A stretch of 64,000 nucleotides of DNA. It comes from Nordella sp. HKS 07. GTDB taxonomy: Bacteria; Pseudomonadota; Alphaproteobacteria; Rhizobiales; Aestuariivirgaceae. The translations under genes were made by a program, and so were the position numbers. Shown here piece by piece: positions 5,095 through 46,340 of this stretch. Under the pieces are notes generated by a model, which did no database searches, was not told the origin of the DNA, and worked only from the letters and a program-made list of their open reading frames with translations. The first letter of the stretch is position 1. Every line of letters starts with the position of its first letter. The DNA lies in assembly GCF_011046735.1 (NCBI RefSeq), contig NZ_CP049258.1, positions 2,870,001 to 2,934,000 on the forward strand, given 5' to 3'.

Positions 5095-7473
5095 ATGAGC
5101 GTCGCGCATTATTTCGACACGATGGACTATGGTCCAGCACCCGAGAGCGATGTGGAAGCGCGCGCTTGGCTCGCCAAGCACGACAAGGGCTTCCGCCATT
5201 TCATCGGCGGTGAGTGGATCAACGGTAAAAGCCATTTCGATACGCTGGAGCCGGCTACGGCCAAGGTGCTGGCGAAGCTGTCGCAAGGCTCGAGCCATGA
5301 TGTCGATGCGGCGGTGAAGGCGGCGCGCAAGGCGCAAAGTGGCTGGGCGAAACTCGGCGGCCATGGCCGCGCCCGCTATCTCTATGCGCTGGCGCGTCTC
5401 ATCCAGCGCCATGCCCGTCTCTTCGCGGTGATCGAAAGCCTCGACAATGGCAAGACGATCCGCGAGACGCGCGATCTCGACGTGCCGCTGGCGGCGCGCC
5501 ATTTCTACCATCATGCCGGCTGGGCGCAGCTGCAGGAGACGGAATTCGCCGACTATCAGCCGGTCGGCGTCGTGGGCCAGATCATTCCCTGGAACTTTCC
5601 TTTCCTGATGCTTGCCTGGAAAGTGGCGCCGGCTCTGGCGCTCGGCAATACGGTGGTCCTGAAACCTGCAGAATTCACCTCGCTTTCGGCATTGCTGTTC
5701 GCCGAGCTCGCCGACCAGGCGGGCCTGCCCAAGGGTGTTCTGAACATCGTGACCGGCGACGGCGAGACCGGCGCGGCCCTCGTCAAGCACAAGGATGTCG
5801 ACAAGGTCGCCTTCACCGGCTCGACCGAGGTCGGCCGTCTCATCCGCAAGGAGACCGCCGGCACGGCCAAGTCGCTCACCTTGGAGCTGGGCGGCAAGTC
5901 GCCTTACATCGTCTTCGACGATGCCGATATCGACGGCGCCATCGAGGGACTGGTCGACGCCATCTGGTTCAATCAGGGCCAGGTCTGCTGCGCCGGATCA
6001 CGCCTGCTGGTGCAGGAAGGCATTGCCGAGACCTTCATCGCCCGCCTCAAGGCGCGCATGGCGAAGCTGCGCGTCGGTCCTCCGCTCGACAAGGCGATGG
6101 ATATGGGCGCCATCGTCGATAAGGTGCAGCTCGAGCGCATAGAAAGACTCGTGAAGCAGGGTGTCGCCGAAGGTGCGCACTGCCATCAGTCCGCGGATAC
6201 GGTGTCCGACAAAGGGTTCTTCTACCCGCCGACCTTGCTCACCAATGTCCATCCGGCCTCCACCGTGGCCAGCGAAGAGATATTCGGCCCGGTTCTGGTT
6301 TCGATGACCTTCCGCACGCCGGACGAGGCGGTGATGCTCGCCAACAACACGCGTTATGGCCTGGCGGCGAGTGTGTGGAGCGAGACGATCGGCCTCGCCC
6401 TCGACATCGCGCCCAAATTGCAGGCGGGCGTGGTCTGGGTGAATTCCACCAATCTCTTCGACGCCAGCGCCGGTTTCGGCGGCTATCGCGAATCGGGTTT
6501 CGGCCGCGAGGGCGGCCGCGAAGGTGTTTATGAGTATCTCAAGCTTAAGGCGTGGGCGAAGCGCAAGCCACGCGCTGCGGCGAAGCCGCTGCCTGCGGCG
6601 AAAGCCAGGGCCGATGCCGACCTGCCGACGATCGACCGTACCGCCAAACTCTTCATCGGTGGCAAGCAAGCGCGGCCGGATGGCAATTATTCGCGGCGGG
6701 TGCTTTCACCCAAGGGCGACATTCTGGGCGAAGTGGGCGAGGGCAACCGTAAGGACATCCGCAATGCGGTAGCGGCCGCCCGAGGCGCCGAAGCCTGGTC
6801 CAAGGCGACGGCCCATAACCGCGCGCAGATTCTCTATTACATCGCCGAAAACCTGAGCGGGAGGCGCGCCGAATTCGCGGGTCGCATCGCCGCGATGACG
6901 GGAGCCCGCACCGCCGCGGCGCTGGCCGAGGTCGATGCCGCCATCAGACGGCTTTTCACCTATGGCGCCTGGGCCGACAAGTTCGAGGGCGACATCCACA
7001 CGCCGCCCCTGCGCGGCCTCGCTCTGGCGCTGAAGGAGCCGATCGGCGTCGCAGGCGTCGTCTGTCCGGATGAAGCGCCGCTTCTCGGTTTCGTCAGCCT
7101 AGTGGCGCCGCTCATCGCCATGGGCAACCGCGTCGTCGCCGTGCCGAGCGAGCGCCATCCGCTCGCCGCCACCGATTTCTATTCGGTGCTCGAGACCTCG
7201 GACGTGCCGGCGGGTGTCGTCAATATCGTCACCGGCGATCGCCTGAGCCTCAGCAGGACGCTCGCCGAGCATGACGATGTCGATGCCCTCTGGGTCTTCG
7301 GCTCGGACAAGGCCTCGGTCGAGGCCGAGCGGCTCTCGGCCGCCAATCTCAAACGCACTTTGGTCGATCATGGCCTCATGACCGACTGGTTCGATCCGGC
7401 GCAAGGCGAGGGGCCGGTCTTCCTGCGTCACGCGACGCAAGTGAAGAATGTCTGGATACCCTATGGCGAGTAA
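5095..7473 (+). CDS. Aldehyde dehydrogenase with a second, truncated ALDH-like domain
   Basis: This is an NAD(P)-dependent aldehyde dehydrogenase of 792 residues, against about 480-500 for a normal ALDH. The first part (about 35-490) is complete: PWNFPFLM near residue 165, FTGSTEVG near 242, the general base in LELGGKSP near 265 and the nucleophile in NQGQVCCAG near 297. After an Ala/Lys-rich linker (about 490-520), residues 525-792 resemble the N-terminal, cofactor-binding half of a second ALDH (GGKQARPDG, PIGVAGVVCPDEAP, VVNIVTGD), with no catalytic cysteine. It lies three bases after deoC, so its likely task is oxidation of acetaldehyde from deoxyribose. This fused form next to deoC is, to my knowledge, known in rhizobia; the role of the half-domain is not obvious. 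Confidence 0.9.
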   Translation: MSVAHYFDTMDYGPAPESDVEARAWLAKHDKGFRHFIGGEWINGKSHFDTLEPATAKVLAKLSQGSSHDVDAAVKAARKAQSGWAKLGGHGRARYLYALARLIQRHARLFAVIESLDNGKTIRETRDLDVPLAARHFYHHAGWAQLQETEFADYQPVGVVGQIIPWNFPFLMLAWKVAPALALGNTVVLKPAEFTSLSALLFAELADQAGLPKGVLNIVTGDGETGAALVKHKDVDKVAFTGSTEVGRLIRKETAGTAKSLTLELGGKSPYIVFDDADIDGAIEGLVDAIWFNQGQVCCAGSRLLVQEGIAETFIARLKARMAKLRVGPPLDKAMDMGAIVDKVQLERIERLVKQGVAEGAHCHQSADTVSDKGFFYPPTLLTNVHPASTVASEEIFGPVLVSMTFRTPDEAVMLANNTRYGLAASVWSETIGLALDIAPKLQAGVVWVNSTNLFDASAGFGGYRESGFGREGGREGVYEYLKLKAWAKRKPRAAAKPLPAAKARADADLPTIDRTAKLFIGGKQARPDGNYSRRVLSPKGDILGEVGEGNRKDIRNAVAAARGAEAWSKATAHNRAQILYYIAENLSGRRAEFAGRIAAMTGARTAAALAEVDAAIRRLFTYGAWADKFEGDIHTPPLRGLALALKEPIGVAGVVCPDEAPLLGFVSLVAPLIAMGNRVVAVPSERHPLAATDFYSVLETSDVPAGVVNIVTGDRLSLSRTLAEHDDVDALWVFGSDKASVEAERLSAANLKRTLVDHGLMTDWFDPAQGEGPVFLRHATQVKNVWIPYGE

Positions 7474-37968: not shown

Positions 37969-38766
37969 CTAAAAGTGGGCCGTCAGTCCGGCGATAGGGC
38001 CTTGCTGCACCACGTCGAAGCGAAAGCCGTCGTTGCTGTAATCCACGCCGAGCGCGCGGTAGCCGAGCGTCGCCGAGAAAGTGTCGTTGATGCGGTATCC
38101 AACGCCAGCTGCTACATCCCAATCGAGATCCGCTCCGCCGGCGCCGACAAGCCCCCAGCCCATAAGGTGGAATTGCGGCGTGAGCGCATAGTTGCCGCGC
38201 ACGCCGACCAGGGCGTCCACCCAGGTTGCGCCATCACCGCGCGTTTTGTCGTGGAGGATTCCCCCGCTGAAGGAAATCTCGGAATTAACTGACCAAACCC
38301 GCAGGCCGGCGACGACGTCCAATCGGCCCGACGCGCCTTCGAGGACAGAATAGCCGGCGCCCGCCAGTGCGGCGAAAGTCGAGGACTGCACATCCACGCT
38401 TTCCGCGACGATGCCATAAGGCGTTGCGCTGCCGCTGGAAAGTTTGGTGTAGATCAGGTCCCCGACCAGGCTGAAGCGCCCGTTGCGTGCCTCACCGATC
38501 GCCATTGCAGCAAAATCCAGGTTATCCAGAATGTCGCTGAAGCTCGCATCGACATCAACGGTCGGCGAATTGAACTGCGCAATCTCGCCGGAAAGCATCG
38601 CAGCCCAGAAATATGGCGTGACGGAATACGTCCAGCCGTTCTGTTCAGTGGTCTGTGCTTCGGGCGCCAGGAACGAAACCGTGTCGGCAGCGCGCGCAGG
38701 TGAACTCAATGCCACAATGGCCAGCAGTGCGGCCCCAGCGGTCATATTCTTCATTGAAATCATCAT
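37969..38766 (-). CDS. Outer-membrane beta-barrel protein
   Basis: The 265-residue protein has a signal peptide (cleavage after ARA, about residue 27) and then alternating amphipathic strands typical of an 8- to 12-strand barrel: WTYSVTPYFWAAMLSGEIAQ, GRFSLVGDLIYTKLSSG, FAALAGAGYSVLEG, LDVVAGLRVWSVNSE, ATWVDALVGVRGNYALT, and a final strand ending in phenylalanine (GLTAHF), the usual signal for the BAM machinery. The function is unknown. It is the leftmost complete gene inside the folC-bracketed segment and reads toward the folC relic. Confidence 0.82.
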   Translation of the reverse strand: MMISMKNMTAGAALLAIVALSSPARAADTVSFLAPEAQTTEQNGWTYSVTPYFWAAMLSGEIAQFNSPTVDVDASFSDILDNLDFAAMAIGEARNGRFSLVGDLIYTKLSSGSATPYGIVAESVDVQSSTFAALAGAGYSVLEGASGRLDVVAGLRVWSVNSEISFSGGILHDKTRGDGATWVDALVGVRGNYALTPQFHLMGWGLVGAGGADLDWDVAAGVGYRINDTFSATLGYRALGVDYSNDGFRFDVVQQGPIAGLTAHF

Positions 38767-38846
38767 GGCGCTCTTTCTGCGGCACGCGAGCAGCTCTTGG
38801 CGTCGCCGGCCCCGACAAAAACCCGATTTCTCATATGACCTGCCCG

Positions 38847-38889
38847 TTAGAGCGTCGGACGCTCACATAGAATCGCTCCGGCGCTCTAA
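38847..38889. repeat. Short inverted repeat
   Basis: TTAGAGCG (38847-38854) pairs with CGCTCTAA (38882-38889); the inner part CGGACGCTCA and TCGCTCCGG adds partial pairing. It lies between the barrel gene and the small exported protein gene, directly before a family B repeat. Confidence 0.5.
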
Positions 38890-38902
38890 CTCTTTGATTT
38901 AC

Positions 38903-38947
38903 GCATCGGATTATCCGAAAACCGCTTCGCACTTTTCGGTCCGATGC
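38903..38947. repeat. Family B palindromic repeat (GCATCGG...CCGATGC)
   Basis: GCATCGGATTATCCGAAAACCGCTTCGCACTTTTCGGTCCGATGC has inverted ends (shown here in two parts: GCATCGG...CCGAAAA and TTTTCGG...CCGATGC). The same element occurs in tandem at 60287-60495 and as a diverged copy at 50949. Confidence 0.7.
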
Positions 38948-38960
38948 TGTAGCCGCACAT

Positions 38961-39281
38961 TCAGTCGACATAGACGACGACGTAACGACCATCATAGGGC
39001 TGGTAGTAGGCGCCACCGCAGCTCCACACCACGACGCCATTGAAGCTGGTGCTGATGCAGCCGGCGGGCAGAGCGGCGACATATATGGTGGAACGACGGA
39101 TCGCGCGGCGCGTGGTGCGGCGGGCAACGCCGGCTACGCTGACCACGGTCAGGGGCCGCCCAATGACCGCCTGCGCCTCGGACACGAAGGGGCCGAGCGG
39201 CAGCGGGACGACACGGTCAACAGCGAGCACGGCGAGTGTGGCGATCGCGGCCAGAGCGAATTTGCGGTACAGCTTGCGCAT
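38961..39281 (-). CDS. Small exported protein of unknown function
   Basis: The 106-residue protein has a basic start (RKLYRKFALAAIATLAVLAV) and a hydrophobic signal segment, cleavage probably near residue 38 after SEAQA. The mature part is short and rich in Val, Arg and Tyr, with two cysteines (AGCISTSFNG and WSCGGAYYQPYDGRYVVVYVD) that could form a disulphide. It starts two bases before the stop of the upstream DUF2092 gene (39284-40096), so the two are co-transcribed. No family is recognised with confidence. Confidence 0.75.
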   Translation of the reverse strand: MRKLYRKFALAAIATLAVLAVDRVVPLPLGPFVSEAQAVIGRPLTVVSVAGVARRTTRRAIRRSTIYVAALPAGCISTSFNGVVVWSCGGAYYQPYDGRYVVVYVD

Positions 39282-39283
39282 CT

Positions 39284-40096
39284 TTATTTCCCCGTATCGA
39301 GTGACAGTTCGCCAGTGATGTCGGCATTCACCTGGTCGAGCTTCTTCATGCCCGCAGGCGGCGAGAAGGAGAACTGGGCGACATCGATCCCATTGGTCTT
39401 CCAGTTACTCAGCCGCAGTGAGTATTCTGGCGCGCCGGTCACCCATTTGGTCGTGATGACGTATTTGAGCGGCAACGGCTTGTCGCCCTTGCTGATCCAG
39501 ATTTGCCAATCGACGACATTGGTCCTGAACGCGAGGTGATGGGATTCGACCCCGCCGACAAGGGCCGATCCAACCACGGCCCCTTTGGTCACGCCGTCGG
39601 TGAGGACCGAATAGGGATCGCTTGCCAGCAGGTCGGCACCGGGGGCATCGAGGCCGGTAGAGGTGCGAAACTCCTCGGTTGCTTCTTCGATGCTGGGCCC
39701 GGGGCTTGCGATCTGCGCGTAGACGTTCTTTGCCTTGCCAACAAGCGATACCGTCTTGCCGTCGAATATCACTTCCACGTCGGCAAAAGGCCCTTTGCGA
39801 GTCAGCCGGAAACCCTTGCTGCGGTCGAGCGCGATGGAACCCGATGCGCTGTATTGGATCTTCTGGCCCTCATGGGTGATGATCTCTTGATCGGCGTCGT
39901 AGTCGGCGCTGAGCGTCGGAAGCGCCTTCAGATTTTCGGTCATGGCGGCGAGAATCTTGTGCGCCTCCGGGTCGATCGCAACCTGCGCCGAGGCCGACCA
40001 CGGCGCCAGCGCCACGCCGGCAGCCATGCTCAACGACAATACGCGCATGCGCGACGTCGACACTGTACGCAGCCGTCCAAATATCCACCTGTTCAA
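39284..40096 (-). CDS. Exported DUF2092-type protein
   Basis: The 270-residue protein has a long n-region and a signal peptide (VLSLSMAAGVALAPWSASAQ) followed by a lipoprotein-carrier-like (LolA-related) beta fold: HKILAAMTENLKALPTLSADY, YSASGSIALDRSKGFRLTRK, VIFDGKTVSLVGKAKNVYAQ. This matches DUF2092 proteins, whose function is unknown. The start is TTG 40096, because GAGGAG lies seven bases upstream (40104-40109); the first ATG (40048) is a weaker choice. Upstream at 40175-40193 is a 19-bp palindrome shared with the Crp/Fnr and DUF1254 promoters. Confidence 0.82.
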   Translation of the reverse strand: MNRWIFGRLRTVSTSRMRVLSLSMAAGVALAPWSASAQVAIDPEAHKILAAMTENLKALPTLSADYDADQEIITHEGQKIQYSASGSIALDRSKGFRLTRKGPFADVEVIFDGKTVSLVGKAKNVYAQIASPGPSIEEATEEFRTSTGLDAPGADLLASDPYSVLTDGVTKGAVVGSALVGGVESHHLAFRTNVVDWQIWISKGDKPLPLKYVITTKWVTGAPEYSLRLSNWKTNGIDVAQFSFSPPAGMKKLDQVNADITGELSLDTGK

Positions 40097-40174
40097 AGTG
40101 AAACTCCTCGATAACTGAAACGTTGGGAGATACCGCTTACTTGCGGCACAGAAATACAGGGTGCGCGGAATGAG

Positions 40175-40193
40175 ATTGTCCCAATGGAACAAT
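40175..40193. promoter_or_regulatory. Palindromic operator upstream of the DUF2092 gene
   Basis: ATTGTCCC-AAT-GGAACAAT, seven of eight half-site positions paired. Its reverse complement differs at one of 19 positions from the site at 42036-42054. Similarity continues on the gene side (GGGACAATCTCATT here, GGGACAATCTTATT there). It lies 79 bases upstream of the TTG start of the DUF2092 gene. Confidence 0.75.
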
Positions 40194-40222
40194 CCGCAAA
40201 AAAATCCTGCTACGTGCGCTTA

Positions 40223-40344
40223 GAGCGCTTCCCGCGAAAGTTGCTCGACTTTCGCGAGGAGGAAGCGCTCCAGATTATGTAATCGAGCCTTTTTATCCCG
40301 TTTTGATCGAATCGAATAATTCGATCAAAACGGGAAAGGCTCGA
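40223..40344. repeat. Two consecutive large hairpins
   Basis: GAGCGCTTCC...GGAAGCGCTC (40223-40270) encloses an inner stem CGCGAAAGT/ACTTTCGCG. TCGAGCCTTT...AAAGGCTCGA (40283-40344) encloses CCCGTTTTGATCGAAT and ATTCGATCAAAACGGG. Both look like dispersed intergenic repeats of Hyphomicrobiales. They lie between the DUF2092 promoter and the end of the broken MFS gene and could insulate the two. Confidence 0.65.
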
Positions 40345-40388
40345 GTGGACACGGCATTGGGCAAAGGAGACGCGGCGTAGTTGGATGT

Positions 40389-41156
40389 TTAGCGCGCATC
40401 ACGGCGAAGTTGAGTTACTTCGCCGATAGGGATCCGCGCCAAATCAGTAGGTTGCGGGATTCGCCCTGGCCCGCCTGGTCGATCTCCGTGATCAGGAGAA
40501 GGGGCCATATCCTGGCAAGCGGCAGGCGGGCGTCGGCCGACATAGTTCGGCGCTCCGCGGGCAGGCTCCCTGGCCAGCAGGAGGACGCTCGCGAAGGCGG
40601 AGATGGCGAGCGCGGCCACGATGGCGAAAGCCAGGGCAGGATCGGTGGGGGCGACTTGCCAGGCGAGCGCAGCGCCAAGGATGGCGCCTAAGCCAATAGC
40701 CGCCCCGAGGATGCCCATTCCGCCGGCCCGCTGCGCCGGCGTTGTGATGTCAGCCATGTACGCCTGCGCGGCAGGTAAGATGCCGCCGCAGGCAATGGAC
40801 TGCGCAGCCCTGATCAGTATGAACAGGCCGAGCGTCAAGACAGCACTCATGGTTCCCGCCAAGCGGAGGTCTACAATCGCGCCGAACCCGGCAGCCGCAA
40901 TGGCGGCTCCGGCGAGCGCCGTCAGCAGGACTGGTCTGCGCCCTATCCGTTCGCTGAGATATCCCCAGACTGGTGCCGACGCCATGAGAAGCAGCGCGGA
41001 GATGCTGAGGATTATGCCAGTCTGGATATCTGTGAAGCCAAGGCGGCGACCTAGAGGTGGCAGCACGACGAGAAGGAATGTTTGTCCGGTGGTATTGATG
41101 GTCAGGCTCAGAGACAGTGCGAACTGTGCTTTCGTCGTGCGCGATCGGGCTTCCAT
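40389..41156 (-). pseudogene. MFS transporter, C-terminal half lost (frameshift and truncation)
   Basis: The frame encodes six transmembrane helices of a drug-resistance-type MFS permease (GRRLGFTDIQTGIILSIS, the loop motif GYLSERIGRRPVLLTALAG, AYMADITTPAQRAGGMG). After LLLAREPARGAPNYVG near residue 205 the sequence becomes nonsense. Continuation is visible in another frame (ARLPLARIWPLLLITEIDQA) up to about 40415 and then ends, where six more helices would be expected. So a frameshift and a missing 3' half make this a pseudogene. It is the only clearly broken coding gene of the module apart from the folC relic. Confidence 0.8.
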
Positions 41157-41316
41157 ATTCTCCCCATGACGTGCCGCCTCAGTGCTTGAACTGGGCCACG
41201 CATTTTTTAGTCCGAATCGTCTTCCAGCGCTGAAATTGTGGCCCGCTGTGGCGTCACATCACTTCGCCGTCAAGCACCGAACCAAGGCTGGCCCGCAACT
41301 CTTCCGCTGCGTACGC

Positions 41317-42006
41317 TCAATCATCCTCTGCCGCGAAGCGCCGCAGCTCTTCGGCATGGAGGACAATGATGGAGCGATAGCTGGTCTTCACCCATCCGTT
41401 CTCCACAAACCGCTTCAATGCAGCATTGACTTGCCTGCGTGAGACGCAGGCCATGGTGCCGATCTCGGTCTGCGTCAATGGGATAGGCTGTTCTGCGGTC
41501 CATGTAATGCGTTGCAGGACGGAAGCTATCCGGCGATCAGGATCGGGCTTCTGCAGGTCGTGGATGACCCTGATGAGGACCTCGACGGCGTTCATGAGAA
41601 TGTGGCTGAAGTTACGAATGACCGTCGGATCGGCGCTGGCCATCTGGTCCATCTGGTCCAACGGAAGATGTATCAGACAGGCCTCCGAAACCGCGCGCAG
41701 TTCGACCCGCCGCGGTTGGCGAGTCAGAAAGCAGTTTTCTCCGGTCCAGCCGCCAGGCTTGCCCATGTGAATCAATCGCGGGGCACTGTCCGGCGGAGCG
41801 ATATTTACCGTCACTATGCCGTCCACGAGACCATGGATGCCGCCCAGATCGTCGCCGAAGCGATAGATCACCTCTCCGGGTGAGTAATACAGCAGGATGG
41901 ACCGTCGCAGGACCTCGTTCTGGAAGTCCTCAGGTTGATGAGACAGCCATCCGTTCTGCCGCAGGACGGCCTCGGCTGCATCTCTTTTGATCAATGTTGT
42001 GCTCAT
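41317..42006 (-). CDS. Crp/Fnr-family transcription regulator
   Basis: The 229-residue protein has a cyclic-nucleotide-binding-like beta-roll (YYSPGEVIYRFGDDLGGIHGLVDGIVTV, GGWTGENCFL), a dimerisation helix (RNFSHILMNAVEVLIRVIHDL) and a winged helix-turn-helix (LTQTEIGTMACVSRRQVNAALKRFVENGWV). It lacks the N-terminal cysteine cluster of Fnr. It is divergent from the DUF1254 gene; a 19-bp palindrome 30 bases upstream of its start covers the likely -35 and spacer of its own promoter (TTGTCC then GATAAT, minus strand), suggesting autoregulation. The same site occurs before the DUF2092 gene, so it is the natural candidate regulator of this module. Confidence 0.88.
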   Translation of the reverse strand: MSTTLIKRDAAEAVLRQNGWLSHQPEDFQNEVLRRSILLYYSPGEVIYRFGDDLGGIHGLVDGIVTVNIAPPDSAPRLIHMGKPGGWTGENCFLTRQPRRVELRAVSEACLIHLPLDQMDQMASADPTVIRNFSHILMNAVEVLIRVIHDLQKPDPDRRIASVLQRITWTAEQPIPLTQTEIGTMACVSRRQVNAALKRFVENGWVKTSYRSIIVLHAEELRRFAAEDD

Positions 42007-42035
42007 AGGCGACTGTAGCCCAAATTATCTTACGA

Positions 42036-42054
42036 ATTGTTCCATCGGGACAAT
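42036..42054. promoter_or_regulatory. Palindromic operator between Crp/Fnr and DUF1254 genes
   Basis: ATTGTTCC-ATC-GGGACAAT. The half-sites pair at seven of eight positions, and the whole matches the reverse complement of 40175-40193 at 18 of 19. Two CAA/TTG ends are 11 bases apart, wider than the classical Fnr spacing. The conserved flank CTTATT faces the DUF1254 gene. Confidence 0.75.
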
Positions 42055-42238
42055 CTTATTTTGTGAGTCGGGTATTTCTCTGCTGCAACCACAGCTGCAA
42101 CCGCCGCTACGGCCGCCACTGTTTCTGCCACTGGCAATGGTGTTTCGGAGAGGAATTGCTGTAGCCCGGAAGGTCCGCGCTCGGAAAAGCCCAAGGCCGG
42201 GAAATTCGAGTGACGTTTCGCATCATCGAGGAGTTTTA

Positions 42239-43270
42239 ATGTCATACTTGCCTGCAATCTGTATTGTTGCCGCGTCCCTGGCGGCGCTTGGGAGTGCGAA
42301 CGCACAGACTTCCTCCGATGCCGCGATCCCGGTCGGCGTCGAGAATTTCGTCCGCGCCGAGTCCGATCTCTATATCGGCAAGATGGTGAAGGATGGCAGC
42401 CTCGGCAAGTTCATCCATAGTCGCGAGCCGGTCTCGATCGACAACCAGAACGTCATCCGCATGAATCGCGACACGGTCTATTCATCGGCGGTGTTCGATC
42501 TCGATGCCGGCCCGGTCACGGTCACGCTCCCCGATGCGGGCAAGCGCTTCATGTCGACGATGGTGGTCAGCGCGGATCACTACGTGCCTGCGGTCTTCTA
42601 CGGCGCCGGCAGCCACACCCTGACGAAGGAGAATGTCGGCACGCGTTACGTGTTTGTCGCGGTGCGCACCCTCATTGATCCGGCCGATCCGAAGGACATC
42701 GAGCAGGTCCATCAGCTTCAGGACGCGATCAAGGTCAGCCAGGCGGGCGCCGGAAAATTCGAGGTGCCGAACTGGGACCAGGTGAGCCAGACAAAGGTGC
42801 GTGAAGCGCTGTCCGTGCTTGGCGCGACGATTCCCGATTACAACAAGGCCTTCGGCACGAAGGAGACCGTCGATCCGATCCAGCATTTGCTTGGGACCGC
42901 CACCGGCTGGGGCGGAAATCCCGCCAAGGATGCGATCTATCTCAGCGGCGCGGTGCCTAAGAACGACGGCACGGCCGTCTACACGCTCAAGGTCGGTGAC
43001 GTTCCGGTCGACAGCTTCTGGTCGATCAGTGTCTACAACGCCGACGGCTACTTCCAGAAAAACCCATACGATGCCTACTCGCTGAACAACCTGACGGCGA
43101 AGAAGAGCGACGATGGCTCGATCGTCATCCAGTTCGGCGGCTGCGACGGCAAGGTAGTCAATTGCCTGCCGACCGTGCCCGGCTGGAACTATACGGTGAG
43201 GCTTTACCAGCCGCGCGCCGAGATCCTGAGCGGCCAGTGGAGTTTCCCGCAGGCCCAGCTCCTGCCGTAA
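42239..43270 (+). CDS. Exported DUF1254/DUF1214-domain protein
   Basis: The 343-residue protein has a signal peptide (ICIVAASLAALGSANAQ, cleavage near residue 22). An N-terminal DUF1254-like domain follows (VENFVRAESDLYIGKMV, NQNVIRMNRDTVYSSAVFDL, VVSADHYVPAVFYGAG), then a C-terminal DUF1214-like domain (TLKVGDVPVDSFWSISVYNADGYF, WNYTVRLYQPRAEILSGQW). Members are periplasmic proteins without an agreed function. The start is ATG 42239, with GAGGAG five bases upstream; an upstream in-frame extension overlaps the operator region and lacks a signal peptide. A 185-base leader separates it from the shared palindrome. A clear terminator follows. Confidence 0.88.
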   Translation: MSYLPAICIVAASLAALGSANAQTSSDAAIPVGVENFVRAESDLYIGKMVKDGSLGKFIHSREPVSIDNQNVIRMNRDTVYSSAVFDLDAGPVTVTLPDAGKRFMSTMVVSADHYVPAVFYGAGSHTLTKENVGTRYVFVAVRTLIDPADPKDIEQVHQLQDAIKVSQAGAGKFEVPNWDQVSQTKVREALSVLGATIPDYNKAFGTKETVDPIQHLLGTATGWGGNPAKDAIYLSGAVPKNDGTAVYTLKVGDVPVDSFWSISVYNADGYFQKNPYDAYSLNNLTAKKSDDGSIVIQFGGCDGKVVNCLPTVPGWNYTVRLYQPRAEILSGQWSFPQAQLLP

Positions 43271-43302
43271 GGCACGACGGTCCTGGACTCACAAACCCTG
43301 CG

Positions 43303-43333
43303 GGGGCGGCGCCCAAAGGCCGCCCCTTAATTT
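43303..43333 (+). terminator. Terminator of the DUF1254 gene
   Basis: GGGGCGGC (43303-43310) pairs perfectly with GCCGCCCC (43319-43326), followed by TTAATTT. It lies 32 bases after the stop codon. Confidence 0.7.
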
Positions 43334-43384
43334 CCAATCACACCAATTTGGCATACGCGCTGACCGACATGCTTTGGGCAATCG

Positions 43385-44596
43385 ATGCCAGATAATTCGC
43401 AATTCTCCCAGGGTCTCGGCCCAGGCCCGGACGAGGCGATCCGGGATTTTGATGCATCGCATGGCGGGCCTTTCTACGAGCTTCAACGCCGGTTGAGATT
43501 GCTGCGCGCAAACGCGCTCAATGCGGGTCGCAGAGCGGTGATTTTCATCGCGATTGCTTGGGCGGTTCCCTTCCTGCTGGCATTGCCCGGCAGCCTGTCA
43601 ATCGCAGATGCAGGAGCTTATCTCCGCGATCTCAACGCCTGGGCGATGTTTTTTGTCGCCATCGGAGCATTCATTCTGGTCGAGCAGCAGGTCGAAAGCG
43701 GCCTGCGCATCAAGCTCCGGCAATTCTCGAGAGCGCCGATCATTGCTCCCGCCTCGATTGAGAGAGCTGCCGGGGCGGCCGTGACGGCGCTCAAACAGCG
43801 CGATTCCAGATTGGCTGAGATCCTGTGCCTGGCGTTGGCGGCCGCTTCCGCGTTGCTCTACTGGATGCGTCTCGATTTTACCCCCTCGGCGTCCTGGGCC
43901 GTCAATGTCGCGCCTGAAGGCGACGGCATCACCATGTCAGGCTGGTGGTCTGTGGTCGTAAGCGTGCCCCTCTTCTGGTTCCTGATGTTGCGCGTGCTGT
44001 GGCGTCACTTCGTCTGGTCGCGATTACTCCGGAAGGTGGCAAGGCTGGAACTGAGGCTGGTCGCGATACATCCCGACGGACAGGGCGGGCTCGCCTTCAT
44101 CTCGGAATATCCCAATGCCTATATGACGTTTGTTTTCGGTGTCAGTGCCGCTGTGGCGGTGGCCGCCGGCAGGCATTTCGACATGGAGACCCTTGATGCG
44201 ACCAGCCTCACCGCCACCATGGCCGGATGGCTGGTGGTGGTGCTTGCGGTGTTTGCATGCCCGCTTTACGCCTTCTCAAGACCGCTTGCCGATTTGAAGG
44301 CGGCCACACTCCTCGCGCTCTCAGCCCAGGCGACGCGCTACCAGAGGCTCGCCGAACGCCAGGTTCTTGGTCGCAACGTGGTCGCCAACAACGATGAGGA
44401 AACCGCAAGCCAGCGAGCGATCGTTGATCCCTCGAAGCAACACGAGGTGGCGAAAAAACTCTCGACAATGCTTGTCAGCCGCAAAGCGGCTTTACCCGTC
44501 GCTTTGGCGGCGCTCCTTCCCTTCGCCATCGAGGGAGCAACCCGGTTGCCCTTCAAAGACATCGTTTCGATCCTGAAAAAGCTGCTGTTGCTCTAG
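43385..44596 (+). CDS. Polytopic membrane protein of unknown function
   Basis: The 403-residue protein has about six hydrophobic helices: AVIFIAIAWAVPFLLALPG (about 52-70), AWAMFFVAIGAFILVEQQ (about 86-103), ILCLALAAASALLYWM, WWSVVVSVPLFWFLML, FVFGVSAAVAVAAG and GWLVVVLAVFACPLYAF. A soluble N-terminal 50 residues and a cytosolic stretch near residue 320-370 are rich in charged residues. No catalytic motif is seen and the family is not recognised. It follows the DUF1254 terminator and precedes the acid phosphatase in the same direction. Start ATG 43385 has only a weak ribosome site. Confidence 0.75.
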   Translation: MPDNSQFSQGLGPGPDEAIRDFDASHGGPFYELQRRLRLLRANALNAGRRAVIFIAIAWAVPFLLALPGSLSIADAGAYLRDLNAWAMFFVAIGAFILVEQQVESGLRIKLRQFSRAPIIAPASIERAAGAAVTALKQRDSRLAEILCLALAAASALLYWMRLDFTPSASWAVNVAPEGDGITMSGWWSVVVSVPLFWFLMLRVLWRHFVWSRLLRKVARLELRLVAIHPDGQGGLAFISEYPNAYMTFVFGVSAAVAVAAGRHFDMETLDATSLTATMAGWLVVVLAVFACPLYAFSRPLADLKAATLLALSAQATRYQRLAERQVLGRNVVANNDEETASQRAIVDPSKQHEVAKKLSTMLVSRKAALPVALAALLPFAIEGATRLPFKDIVSILKKLLLL

Positions 44597-44653
44597 GACG
44601 AAGTGGCGTTGGCGCTGGCAGATCCGATCAGAATTTTTATGAGGGCTTCCCAT

Positions 44654-45484
44654 ATGTCTAGGTTATCGATGCTGAATAAATCCGCGGCGCTTGCTGTATT
44701 GTCGCTTTGCATCTCGACCGCTGGTGCGTTTGGCGACGAAGTGCCGGCCGCCAAAGTGACCGACCCGCATTTCCAGCTGGCCCCAGGTTACCTGAACAAG
44801 GCGGATCTCCCCGACAGCCTGCAGCTTTTGGGATCGCCCCCTTCAGCGGGCAGTGCCGCGCTCGCGCGCGACGAAGAGGCCAGGCAAAAGACGATTCCTC
44901 TGCGCGGAACCGCGCGATCGGATCTGGCGAGGCGTGATGCCGATCTCAATTTCCCGCAGCCGGCGGAGAATTTCTCCTGTGCGATGGGCGTGCAGATCGA
45001 TGAGCAGAAGACACCTTACACCTACAAGCTGATGCAGAGAGTTCTGACAGATGCCGGACTGTCGACATATGGTGTGAAGAATAAATACAACCGGGTCAGG
45101 CCTTTCGTTGTTCACAACGAAGGAACGTGCTGGCCCGATCAAGAGCCGCTTTTGCGAAGCGACGGGTCTTATCCTTCAGGCCATACTGCGGCGGGATGGG
45201 CTTGGGGCCTTGTTCTGGCGGAAATCAATCCGCAGCGTTCAAATGAACTGCTGAGCCCTGGCATTTCGTTCGGGCAAAGTCGCGTGATCTGCAATGCGCA
45301 TTGGCAGAGCGACGTTGATGCAGGACGAATCATGGGGGCCGCCACAGTAGCCAGACTTCATGCCGACCCTGTCTTCCTCGCAGACGTCGAAGCTGCCCGT
45401 GAGGAAGTGAAGAAGGCCAAGGCGGCAGGCGAAACCCCAAAAACTGACTGTTCCGCCGAAGCTGCCGCCCTCTCTGAAAAATAG
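44654..45484 (+). CDS. Class A non-specific acid phosphatase (PAP2 superfamily)
   Basis: This is a periplasmic phosphatase of broad specificity. The 276-residue product has a signal peptide (SAALAVLSLCISTAGAF, cleavage near residue 25) and the full PAP2 signature in order: KNKYNRVRP (KX6RP), SYPSGHTAAGWAW (PSGH) and QSRVICNAHWQSD (SRX5HX3D). Four or more cysteines (SCAMG, GTCWPD, VICNAH, KTDCSAE) suggest disulphides. The start is ATG 44654, with GAGGG eight bases upstream; ATG 44639 is an alternative. It follows the membrane protein gene by 57 bases and precedes the second barrel gene by 55. Confidence 0.9.
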   Translation: MSRLSMLNKSAALAVLSLCISTAGAFGDEVPAAKVTDPHFQLAPGYLNKADLPDSLQLLGSPPSAGSAALARDEEARQKTIPLRGTARSDLARRDADLNFPQPAENFSCAMGVQIDEQKTPYTYKLMQRVLTDAGLSTYGVKNKYNRVRPFVVHNEGTCWPDQEPLLRSDGSYPSGHTAAGWAWGLVLAEINPQRSNELLSPGISFGQSRVICNAHWQSDVDAGRIMGAATVARLHADPVFLADVEAAREEVKKAKAAGETPKTDCSAEAAALSEK

Positions 45485-45539
45485 AGACGTTGGACATACG
45501 CTTTCGCGATATCATTTGTGTTATACAAGAAACGGAAAA

Positions 45540-46340
45540 ATGAATCAGTATCGTTACTTTCTGGCCGCCTGTGCGGTTTTGTTGCCGACATCTGCTTTCG
45601 CCGAAGGCGACAGCCATTACCTCGCCAAGCAACTATCCAATCCGGTGGCGGCGCTCATCAGCGTCCCGTTCCAATTCAACTACGACGAAGGATACGGGCC
45701 GAGCAATGGCCACAGGGCTGTGCTCAACATCCAGCCCGTCGTGCCTTTTTCGTTGAACGACGATTGGACCGTGATCTCCCGCACCATCCTGCCGGTGATC
45801 TCGCAGAAAGACATAGCCGGCCCGTCCGGTGAACAATCCGGCCTTGGCGACATCACTCAAAGCCTGTTCTTCTCGCCCAAGAACCCCGGCCCGTCGGGCA
45901 TCGTCTGGGGCGCGGGTCCGGTGTTTCTCGTTCCGACCGCCACCGACGATCTGCTCGGCGGCGAGAAATGGGGGGCGGGTCCGACCGCCGTGGTCCTGAA
46001 ACAGATGGGCGGCTGGACGGTCGGCGCGCTGGGAAACCACATCTGGTCCTTTGCGGGCGACGACCACCGCTCGGACATCAGTTCGACATACCTGCAGCCT
46101 TTCGTCTCCTACACGACAGCCGACGCATGGACCTTCGGCCTCAACACGGAAAGCACCTATAACTGGGAAACCAGCGAGTGGTCGGTTCCGGTCAATTTCA
46201 CGGTCGGCAAGCTGGTCCAGATCGACAAGCAGCCGGTGAGCTTCACGGTCGGCGTCCGCTATTGGGCCGAGAGCCCCGACGGCGGCCCTGACGGACTGGG
46301 CTTCCGTGGCGGGGCGACGCTTTTGTTCCCGGCGAAATAG
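45540..46340 (+). CDS. Outer-membrane transporter-like beta-barrel protein
   Basis: The 266-residue protein has a signal peptide (FLAACAVLLPTSAFAEGD, cleavage near residue 21) and strand-rich sequence typical of the family annotated as 'transporter' or phenol-pathway MetA-like outer-membrane proteins: LISVPFQFNYDEGYGPSNGH, LNIQPVVPFSLNDDWTVISR, SGLGDITQSLFFSPKNPGPS, WGAGPVFLVPTATDDLLGGE and a final strand GFRGGATLLFP. It may form a small pore, but its substrate is unknown. It is the last gene before intact folC, with which it converges, and has a distinct sequence from the barrel at 37969. Confidence 0.83.
   Translation: MNQYRYFLAACAVLLPTSAFAEGDSHYLAKQLSNPVAALISVPFQFNYDEGYGPSNGHRAVLNIQPVVPFSLNDDWTVISRTILPVISQKDIAGPSGEQSGLGDITQSLFFSPKNPGPSGIVWGAGPVFLVPTATDDLLGGEKWGAGPTAVVLKQMGGWTVGALGNHIWSFAGDDHRSDISSTYLQPFVSYTTADAWTFGLNTESTYNWETSEWSVPVNFTVGKLVQIDKQPVSFTVGVRYWAESPDGGPDGLGFRGGATLLFPAK

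Follow-up and report, generated by a model that had tools for sequence, protein, structure and literature searches.

Results

Genes and candidate sites at the locus

The DNA analysed (the window) is a stretch of 64,000 nucleotides from Nordella sp. HKS 07 (contig NZ_CP049258.1, positions 2,870,001 to 2,934,000). It contains a gene for a Crp/Fnr-family regulator, a divergent DUF1254 gene and a DUF2092 gene, together with two near-identical palindromes between which the regulator is encoded. The features are listed below in window coordinates.

37969..38766, minus strand: OUT265, 265 aa, separated by about 195 nt from the 106-aa gene
38961..39281, minus strand: 106-aa protein, directly after the DUF2092 gene; the pair also occurs in loci L070, L072 and L075
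39284..40090, minus strand: DUF2092 protein (PF09865), with weak LolA likeness (NCBIfam LolA models) below cut-off
40151..40156, minus strand: TATTTC, candidate -10 of the DUF2092 gene, position checked
40175..40193, no strand: candidate operator 2, upstream of the DUF2092 gene, with flanks resembling those of operator 1
40389..41156, minus strand: MFS-type protein, 255 aa, aligned with roughly the first half of its Pfam model, downstream of the regulator
41317..42006, minus strand: Crp/Fnr-family regulator, 229 aa (cNMP_binding and HTH_Crp_2), recognition helix SRRQVNAAL
42024..42053, minus strand: sigma-70-like match before the regulator from a consensus scan, TTGTCC, 18 nt, GATAAT
42036..42054, no strand: candidate operator 1 (TGTYC-N5-GRACA), in the intergenic stretch from which the regulator and DUF1254 genes diverge
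42073..42078, plus strand: TATTTC, candidate -10 of the DUF1254 gene, position likewise checked
42239..43270, plus strand: DUF1254/DUF1214 protein, 343 aa (PF06863, PF06742)
43385..44596, plus strand: MEM403, 403 aa, after the DUF1254 gene, no Pfam match; homologues in L033, L068 and L069
44603..45484, plus strand: PAP2-family phosphatase, PhoC-like but under that family's cut-off; homologues in L033, L067, L068 and L069
45516..46340, plus strand: OUT274, 274 aa, homologue in L069; operon membership uncertain

MFS-like pieces, also short or split, lie behind the regulator in L063, L064 and L065 as well. The available part of PMC4520260 assigns DUF2092 to LolA, with which the weak LolA likeness of the window protein is in line. 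A PDB search found no solved structure matching the DUF2092 protein, and the same search with the DUF1254 protein gave one weak match.

The regulator and its relatives

The regulator has an N-terminal cNMP-binding-type domain (PF00027, 44.7 bits, cut-off 27.5) and a C-terminal Crp-type helix-turn-helix (PF13545, 45 bits, cut-off 27), and it scores below the equivalog cut-off for CRP itself (NF008732, 33.4 bits vs 266). The N-terminal cysteine cluster of the Fnr/FnrN type is absent, cysteines being present at positions 92, 110 and 187 only, and within the sensor domain a GE...PR stretch followed by R or S is conserved across the orthologue alignment. The best PDB sequence matches were distant (about 35 bits, E 3e-8 to 1e-7): 3h3u, 3d0s, 4byy, 4cyd and 3r6s, which we take to be mycobacterial CRP and GlxR. 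The helix SRETVNKAL of 3h3u aligns with SRRQVNAAL of the window protein.

The protein is rare. It was matched in 4 of 69 genomes of its own family at E <= 1e-30 (the other three 31-34% identical), in 10 of 397 genomes of an order sample at E <= 1e-50 (own genome included) and, at E <= 1e-60, in one of 385 genomes of a class-wide sample, its own. The family of genome G444 gave matches in 5 of 28 genomes, with every locus already in the collection, and a search of genome contigs gave two relatives. Among 72,556 plasmid records 26 matched, all below 60% identity: Sinorhizobium 14, Agrobacterium 5, Ensifer 3, Methylocystis 2, Bosea 1 and Rhodobacter 1, all but the last belonging to the Hyphomicrobiales by the plasmid records examined. 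Eight of these 26 records were examined in detail, and the set of 24 orthologues used below combines the window protein with 15 proteins of genome loci, two of which are encoded by the second gene of a tandem pair, and with eight of plasmids. The tandem pairs occur in L034 (6711-8128) and L035 (6443-7862), where two paralogous regulators, 64-70% identical to that of the window, lie about 50 nt apart behind a single operator of the form with a five-base spacer (N5, see below); heterodimers of the two are conceivable.

Two near-identical palindromes, rare in the genome

The initial annotation had pointed out near-identical 19-bp palindromes at 40175-40193 and 42036-42054, and both the coordinates and the single-base difference proved exact. 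In the direction of the DUF genes their sequences are ATTGTTCCATTGGGACAAT and ATTGTTCCATCGGGACAAT (18/19 identical), followed by CTCATT and CTTATT, the common flanks that had also been noted. Since one half of each copy reads TGTCCC and the other TGTTCC, each is an imperfect palindrome.

A scan of the window with up to three mismatches returned only these two copies (shuffle mean 0.01; none of 100 shuffles held two), and in the 7,184,314-base genome the 19-bp pattern ATTGTNCCANNGGNACAAT was found at two places, both of them the palindromes described, with 0 for the control. The relaxed 15-bp core TGTYCCNNNGGRACA occurred at three places (reversed-pattern control, 2), the third at 1872564 within a 281-aa open frame that by eye is the end of an ABC-transporter permease. 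Across ten regulator-bearing genomes the strict core with a five-base spacer (N5) occurred at 11 places (reversed control, 4), five being the two window operators and three orthologue promoters and six not at a regulator, and the strict core with a six-base spacer (N6) at eight places, two at regulators and six elsewhere (control, 6). Because these counts about match their controls, the extra places are probably mostly background; except for the copy at 1872564 they were judged by open-frame coverage alone, which does not discriminate since long frames cover most true sites as well. The exact sequence TTGTCCN6GGACAA occurred twice in the ten genomes, as the operator in G358 and at 4712022 in the present genome, a place away from the paralogue of the regulator where the surroundings look coding by eye.

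Co-occurrence of the motif with regulator orthologues

A site with at most one mismatch in 12 was present within 300 bp upstream of 19 of the 24 regulator orthologues and of none of 13 other Crp/Fnr genes (the closest, in L015, had two mismatches), a comparison whose p-values are optimistic because the TTGTYC/GRACAA consensus was relaxed after the sequences had been viewed, and in which several control genes match the query only from residue 10-38, so that their 300 bp are partly coding. Two fairer tests gave the same picture. The N5 form had been defined on the window sequence only, and it was present upstream of the regulator at the three nearest orthologue loci (G390, G444 and G434; proteins 64-75% identical), starting 48-62 bp upstream of the regulator match; the N6 form, first seen at genome loci, was then found at six of the eight plasmid loci. 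The orthologue on pSymA of the laboratory strain Sinorhizobium meliloti 1021 has a perfect palindrome, TTGTCCGAATTCGGACAA. Five orthologues lacked a site (L034b, L035b, L041, L068, L069): two are second genes of tandem pairs, L069 lies behind DUF1254 on the same strand, and L041 and L068 are genuine misses, both with SRKQVN kept.

Seen from the target side, DUF1254 loci with a regulator in the fetched stretch had the site in 5/5 cases (0-1 mismatch) and those without a regulator in 0/25 (best, two mismatches). The DUF2092 gene of the window was alone in having an upstream site among 30 loci (0/29 homologues elsewhere). These counts cover 30 loci for each gene, out of 38 matches listed for DUF2092 and 52 for DUF1254, with L122 (G358) scored as without regulator because its regulator lies outside the fetched stretch, and with L104 ending at a contig end so that about half of its scanned stretch is inside the gene. 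The five plasmid records examined, out of 119 bearing DUF2092, likewise had no site (up to two mismatches) close before that gene.

The expected conservation before orthologues was seen for most regulator genes and for regulator-linked DUF1254 genes and was not seen for DUF2092 homologues at the other loci covered. The tracking of regulator orthologues across genera supports an operator that belongs to the Crp/Fnr regulator and is probably autoregulatory and common to the divergent DUF1254 gene. Autoregulation with at least two targets had been predicted; on the sequence evidence, autoregulation with two target clusters is a well-supported reading, although a site before DUF2092 was seen at this locus only.

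Half-site spacing divides the orthologues

The 19 orthologue sites fall into 14 of the form TGTYC-N6-GRACA and five of the N5 form, which is one base shorter and hence an odd-length palindrome (window, L033, L034, L035 and L019). The TTG-N11-CAA spacing, earlier called unusual with respect to classical Fnr sites, is therefore a property of the window clade and is unusual within its own family, most members of which have the CRP-like N6. In a tree the six proteins of the N5 clade, tandem copies included, grouped together with support of 96/92 within the N6 regulators, and a smaller tree gave 92/94 for the same clade. All six have SRRQVN in the recognition helix, and the other 18 have SRK or SRQ. 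The protein of L019, on a long branch, has an N5-like site outside this clade, which is doubtful. The stretch upstream of the L019 regulator (about 5750-5960) seems repeated and is partly masked (N).

Both spacings coexist in two of the ten genomes, the present one and G434 (C3 with N5, C1 with N6), and at the four loci concerned the other spacing scores 3-4 mismatches against 0-1. The paralogue in the present genome (2182573-2183247, 59% identical to the window regulator) has a neighbourhood with three N6-like sites, each one mismatch from TTGTYC-N6-GRACAA. One stands directly in front of the paralogue, another some 90 nt upstream of its DUF1254 gene, and the third some 75 nt upstream of an outer-membrane-like gene with a patatin-like gene behind it (these last two names by eye). 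The layout is that of the window, one regulator with several promoters.

Neighbourhoods of the regulator in other genomes

Of the 21 loci other than the window, 18 have a DUF1254 homologue in the stretch around the regulator, the exceptions being L034, L035 and L019, and G390 (L033) has kept regulator, site, DUF1254, MEM403 and PAP2, with identities of 65-76%. Nine of the 21 have an OUT265 homologue close to the regulator (L035, L037, L063-L066, L068, L069 and L074; partial in L064), and this homologue is the nearest divergent match in L035, L037, L063, L065, L066 and L074. The DUF2092-106aa pair was found on Ensifer/Sinorhizobium plasmids (L070, L072, L075) with no regulator match in the stretch. 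As OUT265 recurs near the regulator and this pair has no regulator match in those plasmid stretches, operator 2 seems to have recruited DUF2092-106aa together with OUT265 in this lineage, in which the DUF2092 gene appears to have been captured.

Two further arrangements were observed. DUF2092 adjoins a divergent AraC-type regulator gene, not a Crp/Fnr gene, in L070 (3821-5762) and L072 (3754-5693). On the Ensifer canadensis plasmid of L068 (736-6669) DUF1254, MEM403 and PAP2 are 85%, 71% and 68% identical to the window proteins while the regulator is only 50% identical, and a different palindrome, TTGTGTCGAACCGCACAA, is present; targets and regulator thus seem to have separate histories there.

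Flanks and candidate promoters

The likeness between the two sites is wider than first noted, forming an inverted repeat of 65 nt at 75% around both palindromes. On the DUF side 23 of 36 flank bases are identical (0/5000 letter shuffles as good), and the flank away from the DUF genes is more weakly matched (10/24, p 0.03). TATTTC lies on the DUF side at equal distance from the operator at both sites; if it serves as -10, the operator centre would be at about -40 (eye count) of both DUF promoters.

Overlap of one copy with the regulator promoter had also been suggested. Operator 1 does contain the first hexamer (TTGTCC) of the sigma-70-like match and hence the predicted -35, but the match itself is weak because the scan found 3 against 1.9 expected, which is near chance. 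With another candidate, CTACAG at 42018-42013, the start would coincide with the ATG (42006). A perfect 17-nt inverted repeat with a 6-nt gap (40296-40335) separates the MFS gene from operator 2, adjoined by a second hairpin-like stretch (about 40215-40270, by eye); the whole looks like a repetitive extragenic element.

Discussion

The sites, their conservation, the spacing difference, the clade and the co-occurrence can be read from the DNA itself. To explain them we propose that both palindromes serve as operators for the Crp/Fnr regulator whose gene they flank, and for the model in full we would put the probability at about 0.7. The regulator dimer would bind TTGTYC-N5-GRACAA. At operator 1 it would sit on its own promoter, with negative autoregulation the likely result, and at about -40 of the DUF1254-MEM403-PAP2 genes, with likely class-II activation; at operator 2 its position would be about -40 relative to the DUF2092-106aa(-OUT265) cluster. 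The bidirectional promoter with operator 1 was probably duplicated to give operator 2. We favour a regulator that represses its own gene and activates the outward clusters, the sign of regulation and the -10 elements being inferred. The operator TTGTCC as the regulator -35, albeit in a weak match, points to autorepression, which would also suit the six N6 loci (L018, L036, L037, L042, L043 and L065) where the site ends 15-19 nt before the regulator ATG, a layout unlike that of the window.

The same two observations also speak for a regulator that is a plain repressor of all three promoters. We regard this as a serious but rather less probable reading, since the operator centres at about -40 of TATTTC at both DUF genes occupy the usual place of a class-II activator; for class-II CRP promoters the available part of PMC4595672 gives -41.5.

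That operator 2 is a relic of a duplicated intergenic stretch and has no role at DUF2092 seems unlikely to us. Its flanks do resemble those of operator 1 and none of the 29 DUF2092 homologues elsewhere has the site, but the palindrome has stayed 18/19 identical though the flanks drifted, the TATTTC element and its distance were kept, and the OUT265 gene further down is found repeatedly near this regulator in other loci.

We find it more improbable still that another DNA-binding protein recognises the palindromes, with the Crp/Fnr gene as just another target. In favour of such a binder, Crp/Fnr proteins do not typically have odd-length palindromes as their sites; however, the motif tracks the orthologues of this regulator and not DUF1254 or DUF2092, and the two spacings sort with a clade and with a helix residue of the regulator. 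RNA hairpins (a terminator or leader structure) in place of operators are very improbable: 42036-42054 did come up in the scan as a terminator-like element whose tail is T-rich, but such matches are at chance level (7 vs 6.0), Rfam gave no match in 38700-45700, and the site stands before the regulator whatever the divergent gene and changes its spacing as a block among orthologues.

Under the proposed operator model, N5 would have been derived from TGTYC-N6-GRACA by contraction of the spacer by one base and have become fixed in the clade with the SRR helix, the direction of change being the one we infer. To our knowledge operator spacing is usually fixed in the Crp/Fnr family. As an N5 system stands beside an N6 paralogue in two genomes, spacing may insulate paralogues from one another. 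More tentatively, spacing could act as a specificity code, an N6 system having given rise after duplication to an N5 clade with R for K/Q and an almost unchanged half-site, so that the paralogues are insulated; we hold this to be possible rather than likely, and L041 and L068, which keep SRKQVN without a recognisable site, argue against a simple helix code. The half-site itself can be set beside that of CRP, in which an Arg reads the G of TGT and a Glu the next position: R is kept and E is lost in the helix here, which fits TGTGA becoming TGTYC.

The analysis provides a concrete candidate operator for an alphaproteobacterial Crp/Fnr clade that is apparently uncharacterised, and a small candidate regulon whose genes (DUF1254, PAP2, DUF2092, OUT265) are little understood. 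If the N5/N6 difference is functional, it would be a naturally occurring example, and one easy to test, of operator spacing that keeps paralogues insulated.

Among known systems, E. coli CRP, whose operator consensus is TGTGA-N6-TCACA, resembles the window regulator in its two-domain architecture, in the 16-bp geometry shared by 14/19 orthologue sites, and in the Arg after the first Ser of the recognition helix (R180 in CRP). It differs in that the candidate half-sites read TGTYC and not TGTGA, with N5 in the window clade, and in that the present family has R/K/Q and A/T/S/M at the helix positions of E181 and R185 in CRP. According to the available part of PMC4595672, the spacer of CRP sites normally measures 6 or 8 bp, and one of 7 bp could lower the affinity. 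The FixK2/FnrN/NnrR-type regulators of Alphaproteobacteria belong to the same superfamily, and the FixK2 box is given in the available part of PMC6710368 as a 14-bp palindrome, TTGA/C-N6-T/GCAA; the candidate sites here have another half-site, TTGTYC, and the conserved ones do not match the Fnr/FixK operator of TTGA-N6-TCAA type. In the portions available of the literature searched, which included PMC3751524 and PMC4999443, we found no description of this regulator-motif pairing or regulon, and no conserved 5-bp spacer class for Crp/Fnr proteins. The family is a known one; what appears to be new is the operator, the regulon proposed for it and, most of all, a spacer shortened by one base in a setting of coexisting paralogues.
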